NCBI RefSeq assembly: GCF_007750855.1
Contig: NZ_CP036291.1
Span: 2,790,001 to 2,854,000, forward strand
Source of the DNA: Pirellulimonas nuda
GTDB taxonomy: Bacteria > Planctomycetota > Planctomycetia > Pirellulales > Lacipirellulaceae
DNA: 64,000 bases
Reading direction: 5' to 3'
Every line of letters begins with the position of its first letter. The first letter of the stretch is position 1. The notes below the pieces were generated by a model. It had not been told where the DNA came from and did no database searches. It was given only the letters and a program-made list of their open reading frames with translations. The position numbers and the translations under genes were made by a program. Below, piece after piece: positions 43,086 to 63,369 of this stretch.

Positions 43086-43352
43086 AGACTAGGTGCCCGC
43101 AAGATGGGGCGTTCGAGGGCACGTAACGTCGCGAGCGTCCGCTCCCCGCTTGGGGCCGCCCACTAGCGTGGATGGAAGGCTCCGCCAAGAAGGTGCGGTC
43201 CTACCCAGCAAGGTGCTGACTACTCAAGCGTGAATCGTTGCGTTCTGGGGGCTGAGTGCTGGCGCGGGGCGGCGGTCAACGGGATCGGCAATTCAAGAGA
43301 GCATGCGCTCTGTCTCGTAATTCTAAGAATTGAGTTTGAGGCTTCCCTACGC

Positions 43353-45251: not shown

Positions 45252-47028
45252 ATGGACTCTCTCGGCGCCTTCCTGCGAAGGCGACTACTGCGAGCAGCCC
45301 AGCTGCGATGACGATCGAAGCAGGTTCAGGAACGACCGCCGATTCGAAGTGAGGGGTGGCCGACCCGCTCAGTGCATAGATGGTCCGCCAACTGTTGTAA
45401 TGATCGACGTCTATCACGCCTCCGTCCACGTCATTGGCTAGCGTGCCCGCCGGCGCCCCAAGATTGTCGCGCCAGACGGTGTAGTCGGCCAGATCGACGG
45501 CGCCGTCGTCGTTGTAGTCGCCTGCATACGCATTCTGGTTGGCGATCAAATCGGTGCGATAGATAATGTCTTCGCCTGTCCGCTTGCTAAAGACATACAG
45601 CCGACCGCTCTCATCGACGCCGAAGCGTTGGTCACCGCGGGGTTGATCGATTAGATCACGAAACGCCCCGGGCGTTCCACCATCGATGCTGACGTTCATC
45701 AAATACATAGTTGCTTGAGTATCGGTGGCGTCGGCCGCGACCAATTCGTCAAAGTCAGCGTGGAAGAATGCGCCGCGCGCTAGCTCCCCAAATACCAACT
45801 GGTTCTTGAAATCCGGGTCGTTGGGGTCGGAGACCACAAACCCTCCGGTGACAGCCGTATTCCCTCCAATTGGTCTCGCGCCGGGCGTGACCGGTATCTC
45901 ATGGTCGAAGACAGTCGCCGGGAACTCTAGTGTCGAGCCGGTTGGCAGATGGAGCGTGGTGGAAGCGTTGCCTGCAGCGGGACCATCGTAGGTTGTCCAG
46001 CCGTGGTTGTCACCTCGGTCAACGAGGTTGACCTCTTCGAAATCGTCGGCGCCGATGTCGAAAACTACAAGGCGCGCGTCGCCGTTGGCGTCCCTGGCGA
46101 AACTGAGATTCTGAGGGTAGCGAAATCCCCAAGCGAAGATCTCCTCGGTGTTGCCGTCGTTGTCAAGAAAGTCGCCGCCGTCGTTGAGCGGGTTGTCTGC
46201 TGGAACCGAATAGGCGTGGTCACCATCCCGCAGCGGGTTGATTCGCAGAATCTTACCGAACGGGTTGTCTGCGTCCTGCACGTGCTGCCAGTTCGGCACT
46301 TGACCTTGGTTGTGCATGTCACCCAGCGGAATGTAGAGGTTTCCGTAGTCGGCGTCGCCCGGCTTGGCAAAAGGGTTAAAACTAAGTTGGCCCACGGAGT
46401 GCGTGTTCACGCTCGGGCCACTAATCTCCAACCGCATCACCTCGCGCCGCGAGGAGGTGTCAATCTGGTTTGAGTTGCTTGCGTCAACCGTCCACTCGGT
46501 GATGGCGTACTTGCTGATGATGGAGCCGGGCGCCGTGGAGAGTCCTACCGCCGTATAGGTGTTGTTCGCGGTCGAACTGGGAGCGACGTCCGTAATGGTA
46601 TAGAGCTTGCCTTCGCCGGAAGCCCCCCGGCTGGCATAGTCCGGGTGAAACGCCATGTACGTAAGGCCACGCGTGGTGAAGCTTCCTTGGTGGGTAAAGC
46701 CGGGAAGGACCCCAGGTGCGGCTACATCCAAGAACGTCCCGAGCGAGGCGCCGGTCGACGAGAATGCGTGGATCTTCCCTTCGTTCGTGCTAACGAAGAC
46801 CCGTCCGGACCCGTCATGCGAATGCTGCAAATCGATTGCACCCGAATTCGAAATGGTGGAAAAGGTTGCGAAGGTTGTGAGATTGAGAACCTTGGTCGAA
46901 TTGCTTGGGTCGGGGGCTTGTGCGCACGCGGGTCCTCCAAAACTGGCGGCCCCGAGCAAGAGCGAGAATACAGCACTCAAAGCGCCAAATTCGGTTACCG
47001 CTCTAGAGGGCTTTCGACGTAGGGCCAT
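45235..47028 (-). CDS. PQQ-type sugar dehydrogenase-like protein with dockerin-like repeat and PEP-CTERM tail
   Basis: 597 residues from the ATG at 47028, which has AGGAG six bases upstream. The signal peptide is FGALSAVFSLLLGAASFG. A beta-propeller covers about 45-500: IDLQHSHDGSGRVFVSTNEG, MAFHPDYASRGASGEGKLYT, YIPLGDMHNQGQ, FAWGFRYPQNLSFARDANGD and VDRGDNHGW. This is the glucose/sorbosone dehydrogenase-like group, as in the protein at 22035-24677, but without the GYSI domains. The end has [20 protein letters not shown], a second loop GVIDVDHYNSWRTIY and VVPEPASIVIAAG with a basic tail. Its start lies 25 bp inside the end of the upstream lyase-like gene, so the two are co-transcribed. It probably oxidises a sugar or binds one at the cell surface; activity is unproven. 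Confidence 0.82.
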   Translation of the reverse strand: MALRRKPSRAVTEFGALSAVFSLLLGAASFGGPACAQAPDPSNSTKVLNLTTFATFSTISNSGAIDLQHSHDGSGRVFVSTNEGKIHAFSSTGASLGTFLDVAAPGVLPGFTHQGSFTTRGLTYMAFHPDYASRGASGEGKLYTITDVAPSSTANNTYTAVGLSTAPGSIISKYAITEWTVDASNSNQIDTSSRREVMRLEISGPSVNTHSVGQLSFNPFAKPGDADYGNLYIPLGDMHNQGQVPNWQHVQDADNPFGKILRINPLRDGDHAYSVPADNPLNDGGDFLDNDGNTEEIFAWGFRYPQNLSFARDANGDARLVVFDIGADDFEEVNLVDRGDNHGWTTYDGPAAGNASTTLHLPTGSTLEFPATVFDHEIPVTPGARPIGGNTAVTGGFVVSDPNDPDFKNQLVFGELARGAFFHADFDELVAADATDTQATMYLMNVSIDGGTPGAFRDLIDQPRGDQRFGVDESGRLYVFSKRTGEDIIYRTDLIANQNAYAGDYNDDGAVDLADYTVWRDNLGAPAGTLANDVDGGVIDVDHYNSWRTIYALSGSATPHFESAVVPEPASIVIAAGLLAVVAFAGRRRESPSSALQ

Positions 47029-48877
47029 CTTGGGCTCCTTGTTGGATCTGTGAAGGATTGTCGAGCGAGGAGAAACTGCTTTGATTGACGGCGCTGTTTG
47101 GCGCCACGGCAGGAACTCGAAGCAAGGCGGCCGGAGGTCGTCGCGTTGAGATCGGGGCAATCGAACCGCAGCAGACGAGTAATACCAGCATAGCTATGCT
47201 GCTCGGCTCTGGCACAGCTCCGCGTTCGGCCGTGGGGGCGGGCGGCAGCGCCTGGCCGAAGTTGTTGCGCCAGGTGTTGTACTGATCGGCGCCGATCGTA
47301 CCGCTACGAGGGTCGTTGGGGAGCGTGCCCGCGGGCGCGCCGAGATGGTCCCGCCACACAGTGTAGTCGGCCGCGTCTACAACGCCGTCCCGGTTGTAGT
47401 CTCCGGCCAAACCGAGAGACACACCGGTGACGCCGACATTGTCCAAGAACAGATGGTGCCCGCCAGAACCATCCAGGCCCCCGGTAAAGCTTAGGCGGAA
47501 GGTGACCGTTCCATTCGCATCCAAAATATTGTCAGCCAATCCCGTAAGATTGATGCTTTCATCATCATGCATCGGGCTCGCGCCTACGGTAGCGGTTCCC
47601 GTCGCCAAGGCGCCTGCGGTGAGGTTACCCCCTGCGAGCACTGCTAGTTCCCAGTCGGTAGCGGCGTTCGCGCGAAAGGCGCCTAGATCGAAATGAAATC
47701 CGGTCAGGATCGTTCCGGCTCCGGTGGTGTCGTTCAGCGTGAAGTCAATGAACCCGTCATAGCCATTGGATAATGAGACGCCATCGGTAGCGGAGTCCAC
47801 GGAGGGATCGGCCCCGGTAGGACCCACCGCTCCATACTGCCCATCGCTGCTCGCCCCATTTGCGACAGTGGCGTTGGTGAAGTTGAACCAGGAGCCGCCC
47901 GCTTCAGGCGTACCGACTGCTTGAGCCGTGACTCCAGATGCTTGCGTGGCGTCCCACGTATCCGTGGAGACTTCACTCCAGGTCTCCCAGCCAGCGATCA
48001 GATTGCTGTAGTTCCCTGTCGGCGGAGCTGGCCCAAGGTCCGCATCCACGGAAGCGTGGCTCACGAAGATCAACGCCTCGGTCTCAACCTCTGTTGCTCC
48101 CACGTAGATCCCCCAGCGGAACACCGTGTCGGAATTGTCTCCAGGAGTGGCGTTTCGAACGTATTGGCCCGATGTAAAGGGTTGCGTTTGATCGCCCAGG
48201 AAGACCTCGTAGTCGAGCCCATTGTCGCGAACACGTATGTCAAACGGCTGTCCGATGGCGTTCTCGAAGAGGGTCACTTGCTTCGGCTGTCCCGGCAGCG
48301 GCCTCCTGTGTTGCGCGTAGACTTCCCCGCTCTCTGACATATTGAGTTGCAACGACCAAGCTTCGTCGTCCGTGTCTTTGGCCTGAAAGATCGCCGCATT
48401 AATCGGCTTAACGATTGTGTAGCGGCCGACCCAGTCGTGCCACTCGCCGTCATCGACATTCCAGCGTATATCCGGAGCAAACGCCTCAACTCGAGCCGCC
48501 AACGGTCGACTGTTTCGTACATTCTCTTCACCCGGAAACAGCCGAAAAACCTGCGTCGCCCCGTCCGTTTGGTACCATCGGCTCCACTGGTCAAAGTTGC
48601 TTTGGGGAATCGTGGAATTGGCGAGTGTGTGCAGTTTTAGGTTTCCCTCCGTCTCAAACGCGCCGTAAAGCCCGCCCTCGACCGAGGCATTGTCTACATC
48701 GATTACCGTTCCCGCGTAGCCGTTTTGGATGCTATCTCGAATTTCCGAGAACGGTGGATTGACTCCTCGCCCCTCGGCGTAGAGCAGCCCCTGCCCATAA
48801 GAGCGTCGAATGTCGAAAGTCACTGCAAACGCTGCGAGAGCCATCAGAATATGTCGAGTGTGCATTAATTCTATCAT
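47003..48877 (-). CDS. Lyase-like PEP-CTERM protein with GWETWSEV cassette
   Basis: 624 residues from the ATG at 48877 (another at 48865). The signal segment is RHILMALAAFAVTFDIR. The N-terminal 260 residues resemble a jelly-roll polysaccharide lyase (EGRGVNPPFSEIRDSIQNGY, FRLFPGEENVRNSRPLAARV, WHDWVGRYTIVKP, SLQLNMSESGEVYAQHR), though I cannot define catalytic residues. From about 285 there is a cassette shared with the proteins at 54873 and 59364: LIAGWETWSEVSTDTWDAT, ASSDGQYGAVGPTGADPSV, HHLFLDNVGVTGVSLGL, then [19 protein letters not shown]. The PEP-CTERM motif (AVPEPSSIAMLVLLVCCG) is followed by an unusual 48-residue extension running over the next gene's start. An IS200/IS605 element lies only 27 bp upstream of the start codon, so its original promoter may have been replaced. 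Confidence 0.78.
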   Translation of the reverse strand: MIELMHTRHILMALAAFAVTFDIRRSYGQGLLYAEGRGVNPPFSEIRDSIQNGYAGTVIDVDNASVEGGLYGAFETEGNLKLHTLANSTIPQSNFDQWSRWYQTDGATQVFRLFPGEENVRNSRPLAARVEAFAPDIRWNVDDGEWHDWVGRYTIVKPINAAIFQAKDTDDEAWSLQLNMSESGEVYAQHRRPLPGQPKQVTLFENAIGQPFDIRVRDNGLDYEVFLGDQTQPFTSGQYVRNATPGDNSDTVFRWGIYVGATEVETEALIFVSHASVDADLGPAPPTGNYSNLIAGWETWSEVSTDTWDATQASGVTAQAVGTPEAGGSWFNFTNATVANGASSDGQYGAVGPTGADPSVDSATDGVSLSNGYDGFIDFTLNDTTGAGTILTGFHFDLGAFRANAATDWELAVLAGGNLTAGALATGTATVGASPMHDDESINLTGLADNILDANGTVTFRLSFTGGLDGSGGHHLFLDNVGVTGVSLGLAGDYNRDGVVDAADYTVWRDHLGAPAGTLPNDPRSGTIGADQYNTWRNNFGQALPPAPTAERGAVPEPSSIAMLVLLVCCGSIAPISTRRPPAALLRVPAVAPNSAVNQSSFSSLDNPSQIQQGAQDGPTSKAL

Positions 48878-49550: not shown

Positions 49551-52500
49551 TCAATAGTCATGTAATATAGGTTTAAAGATCCCAAAGTGAAGTCTAACCG
49601 GACCGATCAGCCCAGAATCAATCAAAGGTGAATCTTGCTCATAGAACCGGCAAGTAGTGAATGACTTTCGCTCCGTCACCGGACGAGGCGAGCCGTTCTC
49701 TAACCAATCGGGAATCTTCTCAATTAGATTCTCTCCCGCTTTACCTCCCGCTTCATAGCGATCAGTAGCGGGATACTGTTCGTCGCCAATTAAGCGATTC
49801 ACCCACAGATTGGTCACCCGCACTTCAAGCTGATTGCCCTTGCCTTTGAGCAGGCCTGTAGCATCGAGTTGGTAGGGCGGCTTCCATAGAATCCCAAGGT
49901 TCTTCCCGTTCAGGAAGACTTCCGCGAAAACCTGCACATCGCCGAGATCGAGACTAACCGCATAACCTTCGCTCCGTCGATCGGTCGGCACATCAAACTG
50001 CTTCTTATAGACAGCGGTTCCGGAGAAAAAGGCTAAATCCGGGTCACCGTGCTTCGGCCACGAAACTAGCTGAGCCAGATTCATCTGGGTCGGTCCCCAG
50101 CCTCTCGGGCAGTGCAGCGTCCAATCCGCAGAGAGGTCAATAGGATCTGGAATCGATGGAATCTTAACCGATTTGCGCGTACCATCCGAATAAAACAACT
50201 CATAGTTCCCCGCCTCCATCGCTGTAAGGACTGAACCATTCTTAGCCATCGACAGCTTGGCGGGAGCTGGAGTTGCAGCAACAGTTTCAAGCCTGCTTCC
50301 CAAGTCGAGCATCTCATTCTCGTCAACAACGATCGTTGACTGAATGCCACCGAGTGAGTAATCGACACGCAATTGTTTCTTCGTTCTAATCGCTGGATCG
50401 CGGCCCGCCAGTCTGTTGTCGGCGGCCAAACGCAGTGAATTGCTTGAGACCCGATTTGCCAACGTATCAGTCACATTCACCTGCCGGCTGGAGTCGCCGT
50501 TCAAATCGCCATAGACCGCTCGATGAATCGCCAAGACCGGCGAAGTTTGGGGCGAGTTGTTAAAAAGTGTTTTCCCGTTGTGAAAGACATCCACCATGCT
50601 CGGCGCTTCGGCCTTTTCGTTAAACACCACAAACACCGATTCGGCGGGTTCCATGAACAGCTTCACCCGTGTGGTGCTATGGTCGGTTGTCTGATACAGC
50701 GGAGCTCTTGATACTTCTCCAGTCTGGGCATTCCACAACTCAGGCACGCGGCCCTTTATGCGAAAAACAACCTCTACCTGACGGGCGACCTCCTGCTGGT
50801 TGGAAATTAAGTACACATCAGCGGAGCCGATCCTTCGATGGATCCATTCATAGCCGCTGCTGCTGACGAGAGCGGGAGCAGTCGCCTGGGCAGAGAAAAA
50901 ACTAACATCCGGCTGTACGCCCATAGACGAAAGAATCTCGGCTAACGATCGGGGCCAGTATAGTCTGCCTTCGTTATAAGCAATTTCTTTCACCTTCGTC
51001 CCATCACAGTCGCGCCACACTTGATCGGCAGTCTTTGCTAACATTCGATCAGCGTTTGGATAATCCTGCAAACCAGGTGTGCCTTGTGGCTTTTTCCAGA
51101 CGACATGCGCGCCGTCACTTAATAACTGTTGAACTTTCTTCAACACCTCGGGACGCACGGGCCCGTCGGGCATGACCAGGAGACGGTATTCCATCAATCC
51201 CGGAAGGACCAAACGCCCTTCATCAACCGACAGCTTTAGCAGGCTATTGCGAGAGATCGTATCGTAGTCATACCCTACCGGCAGAGTCGGATTCATGTCT
51301 TCTCGGGCTTTCGTCGTCTGAGGTGCGCTTTCGCCGGGATAGTAGCAGATGTCGGCCTGAAATGCTCCTTCCTGCAGCAAGTATTGGCTGCGGGCCAGGT
51401 ACTCATTCCAAGCTTTTCCCTGCTCATACCAGGTGTTGTTCCGGTTGTTCTGGAAGCCCCAGGGTCCCATCGTCATGCCCGGCTTCACATCATCGCCCCA
51501 CGGCTGATGAACAAAGGTGTGGAAGATAATGCGGTTGGCGCCCTGGCAGAAGAAATAGTCACCCTGGGCCTTAAGTGCGTAAGGATGATTGACAAAGGCC
51601 GCAGTCATACGTCCTGCGGTGAATGCTTCGGCGCCGACAAAACGGCGACCGTTGGTATGAGCGGCCGATGCAGCCAGTTTTGATGAACTCTTGAATGGTC
51701 CCCCCGTGGTTCTGGCCCACCATTCGCCCATCGGAATATCGACGACATCTGCCACCGCAAAGTCGTCCATGTTGCCTGGCAAACCATAGGGTTCGCACGA
51801 AAGAAGCAAGCCGTTCTGGTGGCACATTTCGGCGAAGTGCCCGAAATAGTTTTCCGTCCACATGTCGGCGATTGTCCGGCGGAAGTCCCAGAGGAAACGT
51901 TCGGTGTGTTCAAGGTCATTGATCACGCGACCCGTTACCGCGGGCAGGTATTTGATGGCGTCATAGCCCATACGACGCTGGAATTCGGTTTCGAAGCCGC
52001 TGGTCCAATTTTGCTGGCCCGTTTCGTAGCTGTCGATCAGCACATTATTGAACGCTTTGCCCGTTAGCGGCCCCGCATCAACAATGACCTTTTGGACGGT
52101 ATGCTTCCAGTGCCATGCCGCGGCGGCTTTACTCATTTTGTCGCACTCGTTCCCCCGCGCTTCCTGAGGAGCAGGGCGGTTTCTAAGCCCGCAGACCGCA
52201 TGCCCGAAGCGGACAATCGTCCAATGGCCTTGCGGTACTTTCCATTTAAGCCAGCCGTTGGCATCCATCTCTTGGGTGAGGTCAACGATGGACGCCAGTT
52301 CAATCAGGTCGCCAGATTCCACCTGGCGGGTGTCCGCCGTAAGTTGATTGTCGCGTTCATAGCCGGCTTTGGCTTTCCAATTCGCCACTCGGAAACCGAT
52401 CTCGCCACTGCGTTCTGATTCAGGGGTTGGGAAAGCCAGTACCGCGATGTCTTGAAAATAGTCATCCCGAAGATTCTTGGGGCGTTGCAGCTTGACATCA

Positions 52501-52940
52501 ACGTTCTTAGGCCCTAGTACCCGCTGCTGTGTCCAGACAACGTTCTGCATCGCATGTTCAGGCGTAATCCACGGTCCGCCGCTGCTCGACCAACCGGCAC
52601 AGTTGTGAAAGCAGACTTCCAGCCCTAGGCGATCCGCCTCTTTGATCGCATGCGTCATTAGCTCGCGCCATTCGGTGCTCAAGTATTTGACCGGCCCAGG
52701 ATCCATGCCCCGTTCAATTTGGAACGCCTGAAGGCCACCGACGCCCGCGCGCGCCATCGCCTCGAGATCTTTTGTAATGCCCTCGGCCGATACATAGCCG
52801 TTCATCCAGTGCCACCAAGTGTGCGGCTTGGCGCATTTCGGTGGTGATTGAAAACGATCCCGCAGCGAATCCGCAGCAAATAGGTGTGAAACAGCGGCAC
52901 AAACAAGAGAGACCACCATAAGTGTTTTCATAGTGTTCAT
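49551..52940 (-). CDS. GH106-type alpha-L-rhamnosidase-like protein, lower-GC gene
   Basis: 1129 residues from the ATG at 52940 (a second ATG at 52931 begins the signal peptide MKTLMVVSLVCAAVSHLFA). The start of the mature protein, RFQSPPKCAKPHTWWHWMNG then YVSAEGITKDLEAMARAGVG, is typical of GH106 and related large glycosidases. GLEVCFHNCAGWSSSGGPWI, FLWDFRRTIADMWTENYFGH and FCQGANRIIFHTFVHQPWGD are further conserved blocks. The C-terminus has a beta-sandwich (VQVFAEVFLNGKNLGILWKP). It should release rhamnose from complex glycans such as ulvan or pectin. It lacks PEP-CTERM and dockerin-like loops. Base use differs from the surroundings: one 60-base row (50161-50220) has 28 G+C against 41 in a row at 55141-55200. 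It is flanked by an IS200-type element and an IS630 relic, so horizontal transfer is likely. Confidence 0.85.
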   Translation of the reverse strand: MNTMKTLMVVSLVCAAVSHLFAADSLRDRFQSPPKCAKPHTWWHWMNGYVSAEGITKDLEAMARAGVGGLQAFQIERGMDPGPVKYLSTEWRELMTHAIKEADRLGLEVCFHNCAGWSSSGGPWITPEHAMQNVVWTQQRVLGPKNVDVKLQRPKNLRDDYFQDIAVLAFPTPESERSGEIGFRVANWKAKAGYERDNQLTADTRQVESGDLIELASIVDLTQEMDANGWLKWKVPQGHWTIVRFGHAVCGLRNRPAPQEARGNECDKMSKAAAAWHWKHTVQKVIVDAGPLTGKAFNNVLIDSYETGQQNWTSGFETEFQRRMGYDAIKYLPAVTGRVINDLEHTERFLWDFRRTIADMWTENYFGHFAEMCHQNGLLLSCEPYGLPGNMDDFAVADVVDIPMGEWWARTTGGPFKSSSKLAASAAHTNGRRFVGAEAFTAGRMTAAFVNHPYALKAQGDYFFCQGANRIIFHTFVHQPWGDDVKPGMTMGPWGFQNNRNNTWYEQGKAWNEYLARSQYLLQEGAFQADICYYPGESAPQTTKAREDMNPTLPVGYDYDTISRNSLLKLSVDEGRLVLPGLMEYRLLVMPDGPVRPEVLKKVQQLLSDGAHVVWKKPQGTPGLQDYPNADRMLAKTADQVWRDCDGTKVKEIAYNEGRLYWPRSLAEILSSMGVQPDVSFFSAQATAPALVSSSGYEWIHRRIGSADVYLISNQQEVARQVEVVFRIKGRVPELWNAQTGEVSRAPLYQTTDHSTTRVKLFMEPAESVFVVFNEKAEAPSMVDVFHNGKTLFNNSPQTSPVLAIHRAVYGDLNGDSSRQVNVTDTLANRVSSNSLRLAADNRLAGRDPAIRTKKQLRVDYSLGGIQSTIVVDENEMLDLGSRLETVAATPAPAKLSMAKNGSVLTAMEAGNYELFYSDGTRKSVKIPSIPDPIDLSADWTLHCPRGWGPTQMNLAQLVSWPKHGDPDLAFFSGTAVYKKQFDVPTDRRSEGYAVSLDLGDVQVFAEVFLNGKNLGILWKPPYQLDATGLLKGKGNQLEVRVTNLWVNRLIGDEQYPATDRYEAGGKAGENLIEKIPDWLENGSPRPVTERKSFTTCRFYEQDSPLIDSGLIGPVRLHFGIFKPILHDY

Positions 52941-53200: not shown

Positions 53201-54320
53201 ATGCGACCCTAAGGAGTCTCCGCCGATCAGGAAGCCCGTCGGCGGCGAGCGGTGAAGCTGCTCGAGGAGGGCTGGATGGTGAAGGACGTGGCCGCGGCGG
53301 TCGGCGCCAGCCGGCAGTCCGTGAGCGCGTGGAGGAAGCGGTCGGGCTCGCGGGGGGAGCAGGCCAAGGCGCTCGCCGCCAAGCCGCAGCACGTGCCCGA
53401 GTGCCGACTATCGGGGCCGCAGCGGACGCGGCTGAAGCGTCTGTTGCGCGCCGGCCCGCGCTGCGTGGCCCAGCTCGTCGAGCTAGAGTTCGGCGTTTCG
53501 TACCACCCCAGCCACCTCGGGCGGTTGCTGCACACGCGCGGGTTCTCATGCCAGAAGCCTGTGCGGCGGAGCCGCGAGCAAGGCCCCGCAGCGGTGCAGG
53601 CGTGGCGCGAGCAGAAGTAGCCGGCGGCAAAAAGAGGGCGTTCGCGATCAAGCTAGCTTGGTTCTTATCGACGAATCGGGCTTCATGCTGCAGCCGCAGG
53701 TGCGTCGCACGTGGGCCCCGATCGGCCAGACCGCGATCCTCGACCAGTGCGACCGTCGCGACCGAGTCAGCGTTGTCACCGCGCTGTCGCTCTCGCCGCG
53801 GTGGCGTCGTGTGCGGATGTTCTTCAGGCTCTTGGACCACAACGCGAAGGCGGAAGACTTCCTCTGGTTCCTGGGCGACCTGCGCCTGGAACTTGGCCGC
53901 AAGCTGCACGTGGTAGGGGACAACCTCGGCGCCCACCGCAGGACGGAGAGCCGACTCGCCGCCTTGGGGTGCGGGTGGGCTCGATCCCACCGCCTGCCCT
54001 CCTACGCCCCCGAGCTCAACCCTGTCGAGCACGACTGGTCGACCAGCAAATGGGGCCCGCTGGCAGGCACGCCGCCGAATGACCTCGATCACCTCCACTG
54101 CGGTGTCGATGGGGAACTCACCCGCCAAGCCCACAGCCAACAACTCCTCCGCAGCCACTTCCGCTGGGCAGAGCTCGAGCTCGGATGGGTTAACTTGCTC
54201 GCACATACGTCAATAGGGTCTACGTTGATTGTGATGCATTTCGCAGCAGCAGTTGGGAGGCCGGCGACTGCGAGCAAGCTGTTACTTGGTGACGTTGAGT
54301 GGATCGGTTCGGCGAGGTGA
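53201..54320 (+). pseudogene. IS630-family transposase, broken by a stop and a frameshift
   Basis: The ATG at 53201 would begin like the 16.3 kb relic, but its fourth codon is TAA (53210-53212). The frame then continues EARRRRAVKLLEEGWMVKDV and AAAVGASRQSVSAWRKRSG, a helix-turn-helix domain, to a TAG at 53618. The catalytic part lies in another frame from about 53658: LVLIDESGFMLQPQVRRTW (first Asp), HVVGDNLGAHRRTES (second Asp) and SYAPELNPVEHDWS (Glu), ending with LLRSHFRWAELE. All three DDE residues are intact but no single frame links them to the DNA-binding domain. An in-frame extension runs to 54320 beyond the usual family end. It lies just beyond the GH106 gene. I found no clear terminal repeats. 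Confidence 0.8.
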
Positions 54321-54872: not shown

Positions 54873-57347
54873 TTACGTCGACAGGCGGATAGCCGGGAAC
54901 GCGACCATCGGACGGGCAACCGATCGGCGCGCGGAGATGATTGAGGCGCCGGCGAGCAACACCACCATCGCCAGGCTGTCTGGCTCTGGCACAGCGGCGT
55001 TTTGGACCGTGGCGGCGGACGACGTCGACTGGCCGAAGTGGTCTCGCCAGGTGTTGTACTGATCGGCGCCGATCGCACCGCTATAAGGGTCGTTGGGGAG
55101 GGTGCCCGCGGGCGCGCCGAGATGGTCCCGCCACACGGTGTAGTCGGCCGCGTCTACGACGCCGTCCCGGTTGTAGTCCCCCGCCAACCCGAGAGACACG
55201 CCGGTGACGCCGACGTTGTCCAAGAACAGATGGTGTCCGCTAGAAGCATCCACCCCCCCGGTAAAGCTGAGGCGGAAGGTGACCGTTCCATTCGCATCCA
55301 GAATATTGTCAGTCAATCCCCTAAGATCGATGCTTTCATCGTCTTGCATCGGGCTCGCGCCTACGGTGGCGGTTCCCGTCGCCAAGGCGCCTGCGGTGAG
55401 GTCTCCCCCTGCGAGCACTGCTAGCTCCCAGTCGGTAGCGGCGTTCGCGCGAAAGGCGCCTAGATCGAAATGAAATCCGGTCAGGATCGTTCCGGCTCCG
55501 GAGGTGTCGTTCAGCGTGAAGTCCATGAACCCGTCATAGCCATTGGATAACGAGACGCCATCGGTAGCGGAGGCCACGGAGGGATCGGCCCCGGTAGGAC
55601 CCACCGCTCCATACCGCCCATCGCTGCTCGCCCCATTTGCGACGGTGGCGTTGCTGAGGTTAAACCACACGCCCCCGGCCTCAACCGAACCAACCGCTTG
55701 AGCCGTGACCCCAGATGATTGCGTGGCGTCCCACGTGTCCGTCGAGACTTCACTCCAGGTCTCCCAGCTCGCAATCAGAGAGCCCGGTATGACTTCGACG
55801 TTAGCCGAGAGATACCGCAGTTGGGGACGCAAGGATTCGTCTCCGCTGTCGCCCGAGGCGAATGCCCAATTCTGGGTGTTGTTGGCGTTGCTGCTGACAC
55901 GCAGGAAGACGTAGTCGCCAGCGCCTTCCCCGCCAGCGTACTGCTCGTTGAGGAAGGAGAGCAGGTTCTTGTTGCCGCCCGAGTTGCTGTAGAAAGACGC
56001 GTTGACGTCCATGTCCGCCGTCAAGAAATTGTCTTGGAGCAGGGTCGCATTGGGGTCAGCGCTGTTCGTAAGCCCGTAGTAGTCGCTGTCGAGGATCTCC
56101 GCCGTGGAACGCCGATCGAGCCCGTACAGGTCGGCGGCTAAACCGTCTTGCGTCGCCGTTTTGGTGAGAAATCCTTCGAAGTAGGTCCACAGGAACGGGT
56201 TATCAACATCGCCGAAATCTGGGAGTTGGAACGGGATCACCGCCGCCCGGTCGTAGGGGGCGGCGCCGGTCTGGCCGACATCCAAACTGCCGCTGTTGAC
56301 GACAAAGCCCAGGTTCGCGCCATCGACCGCGTTGTTGCCCTTGTGGCGCCGCAGCGAGCCGTCGGTCGCGGAAGCGATGGAAGCCGGAAGCTCGAAGCGC
56401 TCGGTGCTGGCCGCGAAGTCTGCCGGCAGCTCGCCCATACGGCCCTCGAAGTACGGCCGCTGCTCAATCAGTGACAGCCATATGCCGGGCATTGTATTTA
56501 GGTAAGCGTTGCCGTTGTTAGTGGTTTCGGGCAACTGGTCTATGTTATCGCCGTAGGTGACCGGTAGGACGACCAACCGATCGCTCTGGACGCCATCGAC
56601 GCCGAGCACATTCTGCATCTCTAGGACGGCTCGCCGAGTGGCTTCGTATTGCGTCAGATTGTTTTCCGATCGGGGGATTTGTATGTAGAGTTCTTTGTCG
56701 CTGTTTACGGAGCTGTTCCAGAAAGAGTTGGCCAACGTGTTGACGTTGAAGTGATTATTCATGAAACGGTCAGCGCTGGCCTCGATCAGCAATCCATCAA
56801 TGACCGGCAGCGAAGCGAAGTCGAGGTTGCGGGCGGCGTTGTTGGCCGCACGCCAGAGGATCCTAGTGTCATGCTGTCCCTGAGCGTCCAGCTCTTCCCG
56901 GAAGATTTGAAGTTCGGTTTCGGTCCAGGTGTACAACTCATCGTCGGGGCCCCGCTCGTCGTAGAGCATGAACTCGGTGAGCTTCGCTCCGTCTTGGCGA
57001 GACACGTTTAACGAATTGGCGATACTATCTGCGATGGCCGCGCGGCTATTTTCATCGACCTGGGTTCGAGTGACTTGTGATCGGGGCACGCCGACCAGGG
57101 TATCTTCGACGTGGTCGATCCGACGAAAAACGTCTTTGCGCTGGGCTCCGGTTGCTTGTTCGGTGCCGTGCGGCGAGCGGTTGTAGTTGTACCCGTCCAC
57201 CCAGGAAGCCGTCCGAGCCCAGGTGGTTGGTTCGGTGGCCAGCCGGCTCGACATCCTATGGGTGCCCATCCAGACTTCGAATGCCTGCGAGGAGGGCGTC
57301 CAAAGGCTGAGAACGATCGTGACCGCGAAGCTTGCTAATTTCTTCAT
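54873..57347 (-). CDS. PEP-CTERM protein of the WMGTH family, array copy 3
   Basis: 824 residues from the ATG at 57347; the signal peptide is KLASFAVTIVLSLWTPSSQA. The N-terminal 270 residues are an unrecognised domain, with FEVWMGTHRMSSRLATEP, FMLYDERGPDDELYTWTETE, LIEASADRFMNN and IPRSENNLTQYEATRR, with the alternating strands and acidic residues of a possible TIM barrel. From about 295 on, the DNA is identical wherever compared to the gene at 59364: a CBM-like middle (PYDRAAVIPFQLPDFGDVDN, YVFLRVSSNANNTQNWAFAS), the GWETWSEV cassette, loop [19 protein letters not shown] and VPEPDSLA. After that the tail differs (MVVLLAGASIISARRSVARP). It lies last in a three-gene array with equal 81-bp spacers. 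No known activity. The tail implies surface attachment. Confidence 0.78.
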   Translation of the reverse strand: MKKLASFAVTIVLSLWTPSSQAFEVWMGTHRMSSRLATEPTTWARTASWVDGYNYNRSPHGTEQATGAQRKDVFRRIDHVEDTLVGVPRSQVTRTQVDENSRAAIADSIANSLNVSRQDGAKLTEFMLYDERGPDDELYTWTETELQIFREELDAQGQHDTRILWRAANNAARNLDFASLPVIDGLLIEASADRFMNNHFNVNTLANSFWNSSVNSDKELYIQIPRSENNLTQYEATRRAVLEMQNVLGVDGVQSDRLVVLPVTYGDNIDQLPETTNNGNAYLNTMPGIWLSLIEQRPYFEGRMGELPADFAASTERFELPASIASATDGSLRRHKGNNAVDGANLGFVVNSGSLDVGQTGAAPYDRAAVIPFQLPDFGDVDNPFLWTYFEGFLTKTATQDGLAADLYGLDRRSTAEILDSDYYGLTNSADPNATLLQDNFLTADMDVNASFYSNSGGNKNLLSFLNEQYAGGEGAGDYVFLRVSSNANNTQNWAFASGDSGDESLRPQLRYLSANVEVIPGSLIASWETWSEVSTDTWDATQSSGVTAQAVGSVEAGGVWFNLSNATVANGASSDGRYGAVGPTGADPSVASATDGVSLSNGYDGFMDFTLNDTSGAGTILTGFHFDLGAFRANAATDWELAVLAGGDLTAGALATGTATVGASPMQDDESIDLRGLTDNILDANGTVTFRLSFTGGVDASSGHHLFLDNVGVTGVSLGLAGDYNRDGVVDAADYTVWRDHLGAPAGTLPNDPYSGAIGADQYNTWRDHFGQSTSSAATVQNAAVPEPDSLAMVVLLAGASIISARRSVARPMVAFPAIRLST
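54969..56478 (-). repeat. 1510-bp direct repeat, copy A
   Basis: Identical, as far as I compared, to 59430-60939 (offset 4461). It covers the codons from the middle of the protein to its PEP-CTERM motif. Flanks diverge abruptly on both sides. Confidence 0.85.
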
Positions 57348-57428
57348 CTGTTTCGGTGTCGAACTTGGGGCTCGTGGGTTTGCTGGGATTGCCTCGGGAG
57401 CTATCGCGATCAACAAGCGGTGATCAAC

Positions 57429-59282
57429 TCAATCGTTGGTGGCAACTGAGGTGCGTCGTGAGAACAGCGAGCCGCAGCCGGCGAGCAGCACCAGCACCGC
57501 CAGGCTGTTTGGCTCTGGCACGGCGGCGTTCTCGACGGAGGCCGTGGCCGACAGCGACTGGCCGAAGGCGTTGCGCCAGGTGTTGTACTGATCGGCGCCG
57601 ATCGTACCGCTATGAGGGTCGTTGGGGAGCGTGCCCGCGGGCGCGCCGAGATGGTCCCGCCACACGGTGTAGTCGGCCGCGTCTACGACGCCGTCCCGGT
57701 TGTAGTCTCCGTGCAAGAACTGTCCTTCGATGGCCCGGTAGATCAACTGCGGCTTGAGGGCGTCGTCGCTCGCATCGCCGGAGTTAAGGCTCCACCGCTG
57801 GGTGGTGTTGGCGTCCGTATTCAACCGCAGGAAGACGTAGTCGCCAATCCCCTCCCCGCCGGCGTACTGATCGTTCAGAAACTCGACCAGGCCGGCGTTG
57901 CCCGTGGCGGACGTTAGGAAGGTCGCGTTGACCGCCATGTCTTCGACCAGCAGGTCGTCTTGCAAGAGCACCGCGTTGGGGTCCGGGGCGTCCGTCTGGC
58001 CGTAGTAGTCTGAGTTCAGGATGTCCGGCGCGACGCGGCGTGCGATGCCGTACAGGTCGCCGCCAACGCTCCCGCTGGTGACGGTCTGGGTAAGGAACCC
58101 CTGGAAGCTGGCGGTCTGGAACGGGTTCTCGATGCTCCCCAGGTCGGGGAGCTGGAAGACCATCACGGCGGCCCGGTCGTAGGCGGGGTTGCTGCCGCTC
58201 TGACCGACATTGAGCTCGTCGCTGTTAATGACGAACCCCAGGCCCTGGCCGCTCACCTCGCCGGTGGTCTTGTCGGACCGCAAGGAGCCATCCGGAACGC
58301 TCGATAAGAGCGACAGGGGAAGCTCCCGCACAAAGCTGTCGGCGAGCGCGTTGGTCGGTACGCCGCTGCGACCCTCAAACAGAGGCCGCTGTTCGAGGAG
58401 TGACAGCGCCAGGCTCGAAAGAGAGTTGGTGTACGAGGCGCCGTTCGAGGTCGTTTCGGGCAGATAGGCGTAGTTGTCGTCGTAGGTCACCGGCAGGAAC
58501 ACAAGTCGCTCGGACTGCACGCCGTTCTCAAAGCCGAGTTCTTGGCCGAGTTTGACCGCGACGCGACGAGTCGCGGCGTACTGCGTCATCGCGTTCTCTG
58601 AGCGTGGGATCTGCAGAATGACGTCCTTACCGACCGTGTTCGGGCTAGTCCACAGCCAATTGAGCAGAGTGGTCTTGCTGTTGGCGTTGGTCAGGAAGTC
58701 GCCTGCGCTGCCCTCGATCAACACGTGATCAACCAGCGGGTTGGCGGCCCAGTCCCGGTTCGCCTGGCTGTTGTTGCGGGCGTTCCAGATCAGATTAATA
58801 TCTTCGTGGCCGTTCGTGTCTAACCACTCACGCATGTGCTGTGCTTCGGTTTGCGTCCAGCTGTAAAGATTGTCATCGACTCTGGTGTCGTGAAACATCA
58901 AGTGATCGACCTCGTACCCAAGAGAATTGCCAAGGCCGATTACTCGCTGTAGCTCCGCGTCAATTGCACCAAAGGCCAATTCATTAACAAGGTTCGTGTT
59001 GCGCGTAACCTGAGAGCGCGCGAAGGGCGCCATCGTATTGCGCGTGTCGCTAACCTGGCCAAGTATGGTCCGCCATTCGGCATTGCTGGCTGGATTTGTG
59101 TCGTGGGGCGCGCGGTTAATCATGACGCCATCGAGCAGACTAGCCGTCATGGCCCAGTCGTCCAGATTGGTCGCCACCGAAGATTGCATCAAGTGCGTGC
59201 CCATCCAGACCTGATAGGCCTGCGAGGAGGGCGTCCAGTGCCCGAGAAACATTATGACCGCGAAGCTTGCTAGTTTCTTCAT
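57429..59282 (-). CDS. PEP-CTERM protein of the WMGTH family, array copy 2
   Basis: 617 residues from the ATG at 59282. The signal peptide is KLASFAVIMFLGHWTPSSQA, nearly that of array copy 3. The N-terminal domain is close to array copy 1: YQVWMGTHLMQSSVATNLDD, VDHLMFHDTRVDDNLYSWT, INLIWNARNNSQANRDWAAN, VDHVLIEGSAGDF, QIPRSENAMTQYAATRR and RLVFLPVTYDDNYAYLPETT. A CBM-like part follows (PAYDRAAVMVFQLPDLGSIE, DYVFLRLNTDANTTQRWSL). It then goes directly into [19 protein letters not shown], without the GWETWSEV cassette present in the other two copies. The tail is VPEPNSLAVLVLLAGCGS with RRTSVATND. Spacers of 81 bp on both sides are similar to each other, indicating tandem duplication. Function is unknown; a glycoside-acting TIM barrel is one possibility. 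Confidence 0.78.
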   Translation of the reverse strand: MKKLASFAVIMFLGHWTPSSQAYQVWMGTHLMQSSVATNLDDWAMTASLLDGVMINRAPHDTNPASNAEWRTILGQVSDTRNTMAPFARSQVTRNTNLVNELAFGAIDAELQRVIGLGNSLGYEVDHLMFHDTRVDDNLYSWTQTEAQHMREWLDTNGHEDINLIWNARNNSQANRDWAANPLVDHVLIEGSAGDFLTNANSKTTLLNWLWTSPNTVGKDVILQIPRSENAMTQYAATRRVAVKLGQELGFENGVQSERLVFLPVTYDDNYAYLPETTSNGASYTNSLSSLALSLLEQRPLFEGRSGVPTNALADSFVRELPLSLLSSVPDGSLRSDKTTGEVSGQGLGFVINSDELNVGQSGSNPAYDRAAVMVFQLPDLGSIENPFQTASFQGFLTQTVTSGSVGGDLYGIARRVAPDILNSDYYGQTDAPDPNAVLLQDDLLVEDMAVNATFLTSATGNAGLVEFLNDQYAGGEGIGDYVFLRLNTDANTTQRWSLNSGDASDDALKPQLIYRAIEGQFLHGDYNRDGVVDAADYTVWRDHLGAPAGTLPNDPHSGTIGADQYNTWRNAFGQSLSATASVENAAVPEPNSLAVLVLLAGCGSLFSRRTSVATND

Positions 59283-59363
59283 CTGTTCCGGTGTTGAATA
59301 GGAGACTCGTAGATTTGCCGAGAGTGCGACCGTTGCTATTGCGATTGGCAACCGGTGGCCAGT

Positions 59364-61826
59364 TCAATCATCAGTGGCAACCGAGGTGCGTTTGACGACC
59401 AGCTTCCCAAAGGCCATCAGCACCAGTACCGCCAGGCTGTCTGGCTCTGGCACAGCGGCGTTTTGGACCGTGGCGGCGGACGACGTCGACTGGCCGAAGT
59501 GGTCTCGCCAGGTGTTGTACTGATCGGCGCCGATCGCACCGCTATAAGGGTCGTTGGGGAGGGTGCCCGCGGGCGCGCCGAGATGGTCCCGCCACACGGT
59601 GTAGTCGGCCGCGTCTACGACGCCGTCCCGGTTGTAGTCCCCCGCCAACCCGAGAGACACGCCGGTGACGCCGACGTTGTCCAAGAACAGATGGTGTCCG
59701 CTAGAAGCATCCACCCCCCCGGTAAAGCTGAGGCGGAAGGTGACCGTTCCATTCGCATCCAGAATATTGTCAGTCAATCCCCTAAGATCGATGCTTTCAT
59801 CGTCTTGCATCGGGCTCGCGCCTACGGTGGCGGTTCCCGTCGCCAAGGCGCCTGCGGTGAGGTCTCCCCCTGCGAGCACTGCTAGCTCCCAGTCGGTAGC
59901 GGCGTTCGCGCGAAAGGCGCCTAGATCGAAATGAAATCCGGTCAGGATCGTTCCGGCTCCGGAGGTGTCGTTCAGCGTGAAGTCCATGAACCCGTCATAG
60001 CCATTGGATAACGAGACGCCATCGGTAGCGGAGGCCACGGAGGGATCGGCCCCGGTAGGACCCACCGCTCCATACCGCCCATCGCTGCTCGCCCCATTTG
60101 CGACGGTGGCGTTGCTGAGGTTAAACCACACGCCCCCGGCCTCAACCGAACCAACCGCTTGAGCCGTGACCCCAGATGATTGCGTGGCGTCCCACGTGTC
60201 CGTCGAGACTTCACTCCAGGTCTCCCAGCTCGCAATCAGAGAGCCCGGTATGACTTCGACGTTAGCCGAGAGATACCGCAGTTGGGGACGCAAGGATTCG
60301 TCTCCGCTGTCGCCCGAGGCGAATGCCCAATTCTGGGTGTTGTTGGCGTTGCTGCTGACACGCAGGAAGACGTAGTCGCCAGCGCCTTCCCCGCCAGCGT
60401 ACTGCTCGTTGAGGAAGGAGAGCAGGTTCTTGTTGCCGCCCGAGTTGCTGTAGAAAGACGCGTTGACGTCCATGTCCGCCGTCAAGAAATTGTCTTGGAG
60501 CAGGGTCGCATTGGGGTCAGCGCTGTTCGTAAGCCCGTAGTAGTCGCTGTCGAGGATCTCCGCCGTGGAACGCCGATCGAGCCCGTACAGGTCGGCGGCT
60601 AAACCGTCTTGCGTCGCCGTTTTGGTGAGAAATCCTTCGAAGTAGGTCCACAGGAACGGGTTATCAACATCGCCGAAATCTGGGAGTTGGAACGGGATCA
60701 CCGCCGCCCGGTCGTAGGGGGCGGCGCCGGTCTGGCCGACATCCAAACTGCCGCTGTTGACGACAAAGCCCAGGTTCGCGCCATCGACCGCGTTGTTGCC
60801 CTTGTGGCGCCGCAGCGAGCCGTCGGTCGCGGAAGCGATGGAAGCCGGAAGCTCGAAGCGCTCGGTGCTGGCCGCGAAGTCTGCCGGCAGCTCGCCCATA
60901 CGGCCCTCGAAGTACGGCCGCTGCTCAATCAGTGACAGCGCAAGGCTGGTGAGCGAGTCGTTGTACGAGGCATCGTTCGAGGTCGTTTCGGGTAGATATG
61001 CGTAGTTGTCGTTGTAGGTGACCGGGAGGAACACCAGCCGTTCGCTCTGTAATCCGTTCTCGTAGCCGATCTCGTTGCCAAGCGTGACTGCGACTTGCCG
61101 GGTCGAGGCGTACTGCGTCATCGCGTTGTTCGACCTAGGGATCTGCAGGATGACGTTCTTGTTGGCGGTGGCGGGGTTGGTCCACAGCCAATTCAGCAGC
61201 GTGATCTGGTTATTGGTGTTGTTGAGAAGCGAGTCCGCGCTCGCTTCGATCATCACATGATCGATCAGCGCGCTGGCGCTCCAATCACGATTCGCTTGGC
61301 TGTTGTTGCGGGCGTTCCAAATAAGACTGACGTCTTGATGGCCATTGGTGTCCAGCCAGCTACGTATGTGCTGCGCCTCGACCTCCGTCCAATTGTAGTT
61401 GTATTGTGTCCCTTGGTAGCTGGTGGCGTTGTCGTAGAACATGAGGTGATCGATGGCGTGGTTGAAATTGCTGGCCTCCTGGAACTTCTGTTGCAACTCC
61501 ACTCCAATCGCGGTGAAAGCTGCCTCGTTGACAGTAAGGGGGTTCTTTGACACCTCGGAGCGTGCGATCTCGGTCATCGTGTTGCTGACATTGGCAAACT
61601 GCCCGAGGACGGTCTGCCATTCCGAATTGCTCGCGGGGTTCGTGTCGTCCGGAGCACGGTTGATGTTCACGCCGTCCAGCCAACTCGCCGTCATGCCCCA
61701 GTCATCCAGATTGGTCGCCACGGAAGATTCCATCAGGTGCGTGCCCATCCAGACCTGATATGCGCAGCATGGTTCTGCGGCAAGGCCGAAGAATATGGTC
61801 GCCACAACAAACGCCTGCTTGGTCAT
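59364..61826 (-). CDS. PEP-CTERM protein of the WMGTH family, array copy 1
   Basis: 820 residues from the ATG at 61826; the signal peptide is KQAFVVATIFFGLAAEPCCA. The N-terminal domain has YQVWMGTHLMESSVATNLDD, IDHLMFYDNATSYQ, VSLIWNARNNSQANRDWSAS, IDHVMIEASADSL, QIPRSNNAMTQYASTRQ and VFLPVTYNDNYAYLPETTSN. From the block SLIEQRPYFEGRMGELPADF to the PEP-CTERM motif its DNA matches the gene at 54873 exactly over 1510 bp. This covers a CBM-like middle, the GWETWSEV cassette and the dockerin-like loop. The tail is VPEPDSLAVLVLMAFGKLVV with KRTSVATDD. It is first in the array. An IS1182-like element begins 38 bp upstream of the start codon, so the promoter has probably been displaced and transcription may come from the element. 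Confidence 0.78.
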   Translation of the reverse strand: MTKQAFVVATIFFGLAAEPCCAYQVWMGTHLMESSVATNLDDWGMTASWLDGVNINRAPDDTNPASNSEWQTVLGQFANVSNTMTEIARSEVSKNPLTVNEAAFTAIGVELQQKFQEASNFNHAIDHLMFYDNATSYQGTQYNYNWTEVEAQHIRSWLDTNGHQDVSLIWNARNNSQANRDWSASALIDHVMIEASADSLLNNTNNQITLLNWLWTNPATANKNVILQIPRSNNAMTQYASTRQVAVTLGNEIGYENGLQSERLVFLPVTYNDNYAYLPETTSNDASYNDSLTSLALSLIEQRPYFEGRMGELPADFAASTERFELPASIASATDGSLRRHKGNNAVDGANLGFVVNSGSLDVGQTGAAPYDRAAVIPFQLPDFGDVDNPFLWTYFEGFLTKTATQDGLAADLYGLDRRSTAEILDSDYYGLTNSADPNATLLQDNFLTADMDVNASFYSNSGGNKNLLSFLNEQYAGGEGAGDYVFLRVSSNANNTQNWAFASGDSGDESLRPQLRYLSANVEVIPGSLIASWETWSEVSTDTWDATQSSGVTAQAVGSVEAGGVWFNLSNATVANGASSDGRYGAVGPTGADPSVASATDGVSLSNGYDGFMDFTLNDTSGAGTILTGFHFDLGAFRANAATDWELAVLAGGDLTAGALATGTATVGASPMQDDESIDLRGLTDNILDANGTVTFRLSFTGGVDASSGHHLFLDNVGVTGVSLGLAGDYNRDGVVDAADYTVWRDHLGAPAGTLPNDPYSGAIGADQYNTWRDHFGQSTSSAATVQNAAVPEPDSLAVLVLMAFGKLVVKRTSVATDD
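59430..60939 (-). repeat. 1510-bp direct repeat, copy B
   Basis: Matches 54969-56478 with no difference seen. Lies in the same part of the reading frame. Confidence 0.85.
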
Positions 61827-61863: not shown

Positions 61864-63276
61864 CTAACAGCCCGTTGATCTAAGCGCATACTCCTGCGGC
61901 CCGCCAACTGTGAGCAGTTGGAGGCGTGACTCTGTAGGCCGGGCTCCCAGGCGAGCATGTGTGTCCCACAAGTTCTTCATCGCCGCGATGAGAAGCCAGG
62001 CGAGCTGCATAAGCCCGGCGGAGCCACCTTCGCCCTGCAGGCCCCTCGGCGTGCCGATCCCGAACAGCTTCCGCATTACCAGGCCCAGGTTCCGCACCAG
62101 CGCCGACGTCAGTAACCGCTTCCTCACCTTGTCGATCCCCCGCAGCCATGTGCGGCGTGACCCGCCGGTGTCGCACACGTGGGCGAAGCTGCGCTCGACC
62201 CGTTCACTCCTCAGCCGCTGGAGCCGTTTGTTCTTGGCGGTCTTGGTCCGCCGGCGGTTACCCTTCACCGCGCGCTGCTGCTCGACTGGCTTGGCGCTCA
62301 GACGCGACTCGCCGCGGCGCTTGGGCTCCGGCACATACGTCCGCACCCCGACCGACGTGACCAGTTCCAGCTGCTCGGCAGCGTGGTAGCCCTTGTCGGC
62401 AACCGCTTCTTCGATCTGCGCTTCCAGCCCAGCCTCTGACAGGTGCGTCTGCGCCTCCATCACACTGTCGCAGAGGGTCTTCGTGTCGCTGTGGTCGCCG
62501 TGATAGACCTCTGCCGCCAAGATCAGCTCCGTATCGATATCGACCACGTGCTCCGCCTTGTACGCCAAATGCGTGCGGCCGTCCTTGAGCTTGGTGATCC
62601 GTGCGCTCGGGTCGGTCGTGCTGACCCACTCGGCGTTCGAGACCTTTTTGTTCTTCCGCTTCTTATCGAAACGGCGGACCTCGTCGTCGCTCGGCTCGTC
62701 TTCTTTTTCGATCACTCCTTCCTTCTTCATCAAGCCAATGACGTACGCCTTCCAGTCTTCTCCTGTGTCGCGCCGCACGATGCTCTTCATCGCCGCATCG
62801 GCTTCAAGGGTAGTCGAATCGACCGCTACCGTCTTGCCTTTTAGCAGCCCCTGCTGCGCCGCCAGTTGCAGCACCAGCCGGAACACTTCCTGGTGGACTT
62901 CTAGCGGCAGGCGGTCGCGGACCCGGCTGAGCGTCGAGTGATCGGGGGTCGCCTCGGTCAGCGGAACGCCCAGGAACTCCCGCAGGCTGAGGCTGTCGGC
63001 GCACCGCCACGCGATGCCCCGCTGTGAACCGATCCCCTCGAAGTAACCCACCATCAACATCCGGAAGTAGACTCCCGGCGGGACCGACGGCCGCCCACGC
63101 GTGCCGGTCGGCTGGTAGTACGGCTCGCACAGCTTCTCGACCTCGCGGTCGAAGCCCGCCTCGGAAAGCAGCCTATTGAGCCGCTTGTAGAACGCGTGCC
63201 CCTGACTCTTGGGCAGCTGCTCTGCCGTCACGAACAACACGTCCTGCCGATCCCGCTCTCGCCTTCCCATCCCCAT
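61864..63276 (-). CDS. IS1182-like transposase
   Basis: 470 residues from the ATG at 63276, which has AGGAG seven bases upstream. The N-terminal DUF772-like part has CEPYYQPTGTRGRPSVPPGV followed by YFRMLMVGYFEGIGSQRGIA. The first catalytic Asp is in KTVAVDSTTLEADAAM, the second in EAVADKGYHAAEQLE, and the Glu in RSERVERSFAHVCDTGG. A charged insertion (EDEPSDDEVRRFDKKRKNKK) lies between. The C-terminal end is encoded by the inverted repeat. Length and motif spacing are normal for the IS1182/IS5 supergroup, and the frame is uninterrupted, so it could be active. The gene runs in the same direction as the PEP-CTERM array downstream, and read-through could affect that array. Confidence 0.9.
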   Translation of the reverse strand: MGMGRRERDRQDVLFVTAEQLPKSQGHAFYKRLNRLLSEAGFDREVEKLCEPYYQPTGTRGRPSVPPGVYFRMLMVGYFEGIGSQRGIAWRCADSLSLREFLGVPLTEATPDHSTLSRVRDRLPLEVHQEVFRLVLQLAAQQGLLKGKTVAVDSTTLEADAAMKSIVRRDTGEDWKAYVIGLMKKEGVIEKEDEPSDDEVRRFDKKRKNKKVSNAEWVSTTDPSARITKLKDGRTHLAYKAEHVVDIDTELILAAEVYHGDHSDTKTLCDSVMEAQTHLSEAGLEAQIEEAVADKGYHAAEQLELVTSVGVRTYVPEPKRRGESRLSAKPVEQQRAVKGNRRRTKTAKNKRLQRLRSERVERSFAHVCDTGGSRRTWLRGIDKVRKRLLTSALVRNLGLVMRKLFGIGTPRGLQGEGGSAGLMQLAWLLIAAMKNLWDTHARLGARPTESRLQLLTVGGPQEYALRSTGC

Positions 63277-63369
63277 CGCTTCGCTCCTGCTCAAGTCACG
63301 CTTTCGTCGGCGACGCAGTTTAGCGCCAAGGGGTTGGTCGGGGGAGTGGCATTTTTCAACGGGCTGTTA
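61865..63369 (-). mobile_element. IS1182-like insertion sequence, apparently complete
   Basis: 1505 bp bounded by perfect 14-bp inverted repeats: TAACAGCCCGTTGA at 61865-61878 and its complement at 63356-63369. One intact transposase fills it; its TAG stop lies across the left repeat edge. I could not identify a target duplication. Its left edge is 38 bp upstream of the PEP-CTERM gene at 59364-61826. Confidence 0.82.

Follow-up and report, generated by a model that had tools for sequence, protein, structure and literature searches.

Probable ectopic gene conversion among secreted-protein genes with divergent heads and shared tails in Pirellulimonas nuda

Genes of the locus and their modules

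The window, by which we mean the whole 64,000-nucleotide stretch of the Pirellulimonas nuda genome that was analysed, contains four genes (A, B, C, and D) whose products combine an N-terminal head with a related tail. Plausible ATG starts of A, B, and C, all on the minus strand, lie at 57347, 59282, and 61826, respectively. These genes, their modules, and their neighbours are as follows.

43230-45251, plus strand: GH78-like gene (Pfam Bac_rhamnosid6H, 2.5e-58)
45235-47160, minus strand: sugar dehydrogenase-like gene (Pfam GSDH, 1.3e-15)
47003-48865, minus strand: gene D, an unrelated head (no Pfam match) with the same tail as A and C
47204-47404, minus strand: dockerin-like motif of D
47405-48001, minus strand: jelly-roll-like module of D
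49551-52940, minus strand: GH106 gene (Pfam Glyco_hydro_106, 2.7e-195)
53252-54320, plus strand: transposase remnant downstream of A, IS630-like by reading, with one full-length place in the genome
54873-57347, minus strand: gene A (824 aa), with signal peptide, barrel head, middle module, jelly-roll-like module, dockerin-like motif, and putative PEP-CTERM signal
54981-55181, minus strand: dockerin-like motif of A
55182-55778, minus strand: jelly-roll-like module of A
56430-57284, minus strand: barrel head of A, delimited by alignment
57429-59282, minus strand: gene B (617 aa), with the architecture of A minus the jelly-roll-like module
57510-57710, minus strand: dockerin-like motif of B
58359-59219, minus strand: barrel head of B, delimited by alignment
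59364-61826, minus strand: gene C (820 aa), with a B-like head and 3' end and an A-derived interior
59442-59642, minus strand: dockerin-like motif of C
59643-60239, minus strand: jelly-roll-like module of C
60891-61763, minus strand: barrel head of C, delimited by alignment
61864-63294, minus strand: transposase of the IS1182 kind (NCBIfam IS1182, 193.5 bits, below the cut-off of 270)

The A, B, and C proteins begin with a signal-peptide-like segment followed by a head of ∼290 residues and a middle module, and in all three a VPEP motif, which is also found in D, stands at the start of the C-terminal hydrophobic segment. A, B, and D match the PEP-CTERM model PF07589 at E values of about 0.075 to 0.078, below the Pfam cut-off, and no match at E 0.1 was listed for C. 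We name the motif preceding this signal dockerin-like only, since its matches to Dockerin_1 (PF00404; E about 0.012 to 0.017, 15.8 to 16.2 bits versus a cut-off of 22.9) are below the cut-off and cover only about 24 of 57 positions. The module of ∼200 residues located by a profile match is called jelly-roll-like as a reading of its sequence.

The first-pass annotation had proposed that the genes of the array carry different N-terminal domains. This did not hold, as the heads of A, B, and C form one homologous family of predicted barrels with 41 to 47% amino acid identity to A. When the head of B was predicted with an alignment of nine homologues, the model showed eight strands alternating with helices (pLDDT 70.9, pTM 0.73, moderate confidence), and its best VIA-align match had a Z score of 10.8 and an rmsd of 4.1 over 239 residues. 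The lists of structural neighbours were led by glycosidases, with other barrels also present, and this moderate-confidence model points to a (beta/alpha)8 barrel. Full-length models of the four window proteins were poor (mean pLDDT 38.5), and our statements about the fold are not based on them. Searches of the A, B, and C heads against Pfam and NCBIfam at E values up to 0.1 gave no match to a curated family, glycoside hydrolases included, and a search of the PDB by sequence returned nothing convincing.

The window genome has only three copies of the head. Among 392 genomes taken from the phylum, the head of B was found in one, that of the window itself, and among 43 genomes of the family in two, and a head profile (A1) is present in 3 of 396 genomes of the order; scanning genome contigs with one single head found nothing, and scanning them with the head alignment A1 found five loci. 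Homologous heads adjoin BNR_4 proteins in Bythopirellula polymerisocia and in Haloferula. The heads form a small family that lacks a Pfam model and repeatedly lies next to rhamnosidases and BNR_4 proteins, which makes it a reasonable candidate for a new enzyme family. The family also occurs with other tails in Verrucomicrobia (Haloferula rosea and Roseibacillus persicicus), and in one more Pirellulales genome (G637) the head directly follows a putative GH78-like gene, an ORF read by eye. Given the GH78-like, GH106, and sugar dehydrogenase-like neighbours and the BNR_4 proteins beside homologous heads, the gene set may act on a rhamnose-containing, perhaps sulphated, polysaccharide.

The stop codon of the IS1182-like transposase lies 38 bp upstream of the ATG of C. 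Nine of the 12 matches to this element in the genome are full length, with 94 to 100% identity, which indicates that it was active recently. We rejected IS transposition as the direct cause of the repeat described below, since the repeated tract contains no transposase and ends inside coding motifs.

A 1510-base identical tract and the mosaic structure of gene C

Two segments inside A and C had been noticed to match at an offset of 4461.

54969-56478, minus strand: copy of the tract inside gene A, the donor (0 of 1510 mismatches; head and middle module collinear with the B. polymerisocia orthologue)
59430-60939, minus strand: copy of the tract inside gene C, the recipient (C is B-like on both sides and A-like inside)

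A full base-by-base comparison found 1510 of 1510 bases identical, with no mismatch. The edges are sharp, as the bases directly outside, 54968 and 56479, differ between the copies, and beyond them the same offset shows a short homologous shoulder (63 to 64% in the edge windows) followed by 17 to 37% identity per 100 bases. No exact direct repeat in the window is longer than this tract; those that follow, of 77, 77, 76, and 76 bases, all lie within the same family of tails. A search of the 6,618,662-base single-contig genome located the whole tract at exactly two places, and a search of a plasmid collection gave no match. The strong N-terminal divergence reported at first reading was seen again in the heads of A and C, which are only 42 to 62% identical per 60 codons, and an exact run of 1510 bases is therefore far beyond chance. 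Synonymous differences are absent from the tract over about 500 codons, compared with 0.5 to 0.8 in the adjacent heads.

The tract contains the end of the barrel, the middle module, the jelly-roll-like module, the dockerin-like motif, and the start of the putative PEP-CTERM signal. The single stalk of the earlier description is too simple a term for this series of modules. Gene B, described as skipped, indeed holds no 1510-base copy, but its dockerin end shares 234 bases with A at 90.6% identity, and B has 77-base exact runs with both A and C. The tail of D shares 827 bp with A and 819 bp with C, in both cases at 90.6%. Elsewhere in the window genome, other tail-bearing genes (at L084 and L093) have internal tandem repeats, in L084 at 86% over 1414 bp, and a 360-bp exact match in opposite orientation joins window positions 19903-20262 to a distant place (L093, 2322-2681).

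The tract starts in the same codon phase in both copies (position 869 in A and 887 in C, 0-based). The expectation that crossing-over between the copies would delete 4461 bp and make a hybrid gene agrees with this arrangement, because a common phase would keep the product in frame, with the head of C followed by the last codons of A. Such a hybrid would lose gene B and the head of A.

Gene C is a B-like gene with an A-like interior. We counted informative sites, at which A and B differ and C equals one of them, in a codon alignment of the three genes (602 sites). Ratios of A-like to B-like sites were 75:224 upstream of the tract, 283:0 inside it, and 3:17 downstream within the gene, and the maximum chi-square was 357 compared to 23 for the largest of 200 shuffles.

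The direction of copying was read from the B. polymerisocia genome (G023), whose orthologue of A is 86.7% identical to A along 1573 bp that span head and middle module. Directly after the motif EQRP at the end of the head, the sequence YFEGRMGELPA is common to A, this orthologue, and C, and LFEGR.G.PTNA is found instead in B and in the two B/C-type genes of B. polymerisocia. Because the same combination of head and middle module occurs in the orthologue of A in another genus, A is the donor and C the recipient, a polarity that rests on one orthologue which has itself probably moved horizontally and is not a clean vertical outgroup. The heads of C and B are 65 to 68% identical at the amino acid level and the 3' end of C is 83 to 87% identical to B in DNA; because these B-like ends are themselves old, C is not a recent duplicate of A whose ends were exchanged. 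Abrupt edges, flanks belonging to the recipient, and a donor indicated by an outgroup, three marks of gene conversion, are all present. The proposal of recent gene conversion or recombination between the first and third genes of the array is upheld and becomes more specific, with a donor and a recipient.

Heads and tails in related genomes

A profile search found the jelly-roll-like module in 4 of 43 genomes of the family, each with more than one copy: three in the window genome (exactly A, C, and D), six in B. polymerisocia, two in a third genus (G024), and five in G005, each set lying within one region of a contig. Three of these four genomes carry near-identical tails on divergent or unrelated heads. 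Tail identity is 90.6 to 100% within the window genome and 83 to 97% within B. polymerisocia, where the orthologue of A and a B/C-type gene share 736 bp at 97.0%, including a 443-bp exact run. The D orthologue of that genome (L108) shares 731 to 741 bp at 90 to 91% with both of these genes, a BNR_4 gene shares 752 to 794 bp at 83 to 86% with all three, and a 226-bp exact run is common to two B/C-type heads. In G024, adjacent genes with a D-type head and a non-homologous head have 764 of 765 bases in common, with sharp edges. G005 is an exception with no recent homogenisation of tails: the two tails compared there have 72% amino acid identity, a value that does not exceed the one between genera, and one of them is 76% identical to the tail of another genus. 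Gene B, with no jelly-roll-like module, also goes against the pattern of tail sharing.

Trees of heads and tails are in conflict. In the head tree, A and its orthologue were joined with support of 100/100, and a clade of the A and C heads was rejected (p-AU 1.6e-27). The D heads are 74 to 84% identical among four genera, whereas the D tail of the window matches the D tails of the other three genera at 43 to 47% identity and the A tail at 90%. The tail tree rejected a single clade of the four D orthologues (p-AU 2.3e-66), and likewise one of A, C, and the A orthologue (p-AU 3.5e-43). Heads follow orthology and tails mostly follow the genome, with one counter-case in B. polymerisocia (g23_BC1), whose tail is 76 to 80% identical to the window type compared to 41 to 43% to its own neighbours.

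The dockerin-like motif was also typed in a sample of 72 matches, drawn from the best about 30 of 126 matches in the window genome and 31 of 122 in B. polymerisocia with a profile built from both tail types. One type accounts for 31 of 33 motifs of the window genome and 8 of 8 of G024, the other for 31 of 31 of B. polymerisocia; the remaining two of the 33 fit neither type and were left out. No motif match was obtained at 5 of the 27 loci sampled in the window genome and at 3 of the 27 sampled in B. polymerisocia, and the closest pairs of motifs in the sample all came from local clusters.

Counted from codon 60 to the end of the middle module, A and its B. polymerisocia orthologue (g23_A, L029 7553-10027) differ at synonymous sites by 0.04 to 0.44 per 60 codons, with 0.44 in the first 49 codons. 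Synonymous difference is 0.71 to 0.77 in the nearby orthologue pairs of GSDH and GH78-like genes and 0.72 when B is compared with g23_BC1. The GC3 of the A orthologue is 70 in the head and 82 in the middle module, and 61 to 64 in the tail modules; that of 23 comparable B. polymerisocia gene bodies has a median of 55 and a range of 48 to 69. Its jelly-roll-like module and dockerin-like motif are of the local B. polymerisocia kind. These data suggest that B. polymerisocia acquired the head and middle module from a relative richer in GC and that they carry a local tail, and the variation in synonymous difference along g23_A hints at more than one exchange event. P. nuda Pla175, probably the strain of the window, and B. 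polymerisocia Pla144 are both described as coming from particles incubated in brackish Baltic waters (PMC7717034).

Two other observations concern the joins between modules. A BNR_4 protein of G024 (L031 6559-8850) has a middle module 69% identical to that of B and no barrel head, which implies that the middle module also moves between heads. In two B. polymerisocia genes (L029 7553-10027 and 3325-5688), a VPEPP stretch directly precedes the jelly-roll-like module; it may be the remains of an earlier PEP-CTERM end that later received the tail.

Origin of the tract and comparison with known systems

We conclude that the tract very probably arose by recent ectopic gene conversion and is the youngest in a series of tail-copying events, a concerted evolution of tails. 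A, B, and C are old tandem paralogues for secreted proteins of a glycan-degradation locus, and homologous recombination between two of them would have copied 1510 bp of A over the interior of C, while the ends of C and its downstream sequence stayed B-like. The molecular route would be RecA-type conversion, as no simpler event would exchange an internal stretch while keeping the flank on either side. At this locus and in two further genera, the jelly-roll-like and dockerin-like modules, and sometimes the middle module, would have been copied repeatedly from gene to gene, so that divergent or non-homologous heads end up with one genome-typical tail. This shared tail may serve the export and anchoring of the enzyme set.

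Among other explanations, the one we take most seriously, although we hold it to be unlikely, is that a mobile tail cassette inserts into or displaces the ends of unrelated genes, as proposed for rhs C-terminal displacement. One tail type does occur on non-homologous heads (D-type, X-type, BNR_4-type, and barrel), and the IS1182-like element, active in the window genome, adjoins C. Where heads are non-homologous, cutting and grafting into tail-less genes would leave traces similar to those of conversion. In the event between A and C, however, the flanks of the tract in C both have homology to A and B. Genes of the D and X types carry such tails in G005 too, which implies that tails pre-existed in those lineages, and no displaced tail fragments were noticed in passing downstream of the genes that were read.

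A recent tandem duplication of a unit containing A, followed by replacement of the ends of the copy, would fit the tandem arrangement of these paralogues, and an older unit duplication did occur here, as the B|A and C|B junctions share 83% identity over about 400 bp. We nonetheless consider a recent one improbable: it would leave identity throughout the unit instead of over 1510 bp only, the ends of C are too old, at the identities to B given above, to have been replaced recently from that gene, and among the three head copies in the genome no source nearly identical to the head of C was found. Still less probable is an error of assembly or polishing through which two diverged copies became identical. 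Polishing can go wrong in repeats of such length, but the genome is a single contig, the two copies are flanked on either side by different sequence, two other assemblies show events of this type, and the diverged family copies D and B were kept apart in the same window. Extreme selection on the DNA of the tract, with no recombination, has nothing in its favour except the identity itself, and we regard it as practically negligible given the contrast in synonymous difference between the tract and the adjacent heads.

Ectopic conversion of tails could also, in a more tentative reading that we would not put at even odds, amount to host-specific re-tailing, in which imported heads are fitted with a local tail and so join the export, anchoring, or assembly route of the host. 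The A orthologue of B. polymerisocia looks like such a case because it is close to A of the window, is rich in GC3 in its head and middle module, and has a local tail. More generally, if recombination between tails is the cause of their likeness, horizontally gained enzymes could be adapted by tail exchange, tail type might reflect the sorting or assembly machinery of the host itself, and each module of such secreted proteins would need a phylogeny of its own.

Searches of the open-licence PMC literature turned up no account of PEP-CTERM or dockerin-like tails undergoing gene conversion, and the concerted evolution of tails across divergent and non-homologous heads, in three of four module-bearing genomes, seems to be new. 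Gene conversion between bacterial paralogues is itself known, as described for class-I release factor genes (PMC4530459) and rRNA operons (PMC6002687). As in those accounts, an internal tract is copied between paralogues of one genome, flanks stay distinct, and the copies evolve in concert; unlike there, the exchanged part is a 3' tail module on strongly divergent or non-homologous heads. With rhs C-terminal displacement as presented in PMC2935791, our genes have in common that recombination at shared sequence re-pairs N- and C-terminal parts. In rhs, however, a constant core gets variable tips and old tips are left downstream, whereas here variable heads get a common tail and displaced tips were not noticed in passing. 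The vlsE system of Borrelia, as outlined in PMC9159922, likewise involves segmental conversion in surface-protein genes, but as antigenic variation; at our locus tails are made alike, the exposed part is not varied, and silent cassettes were not seen.

The closest likeness in pattern concerns PEP-CTERM proteins. Haft et al. (2006; PMC1569441) describe PEP-CTERM regions as much more similar within species than between species and put this down to paralogous expansion. The tails described here also resemble each other within a species, but here homogenisation extends across genes with heads that each have an orthologue of their own in other genera, and for this reason conversion, and not duplication alone, is needed. 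Since the heads have such orthologues and the tails do not follow them, recombination between tails offers a concrete and testable cause of the within-species likeness of PEP-CTERM regions.
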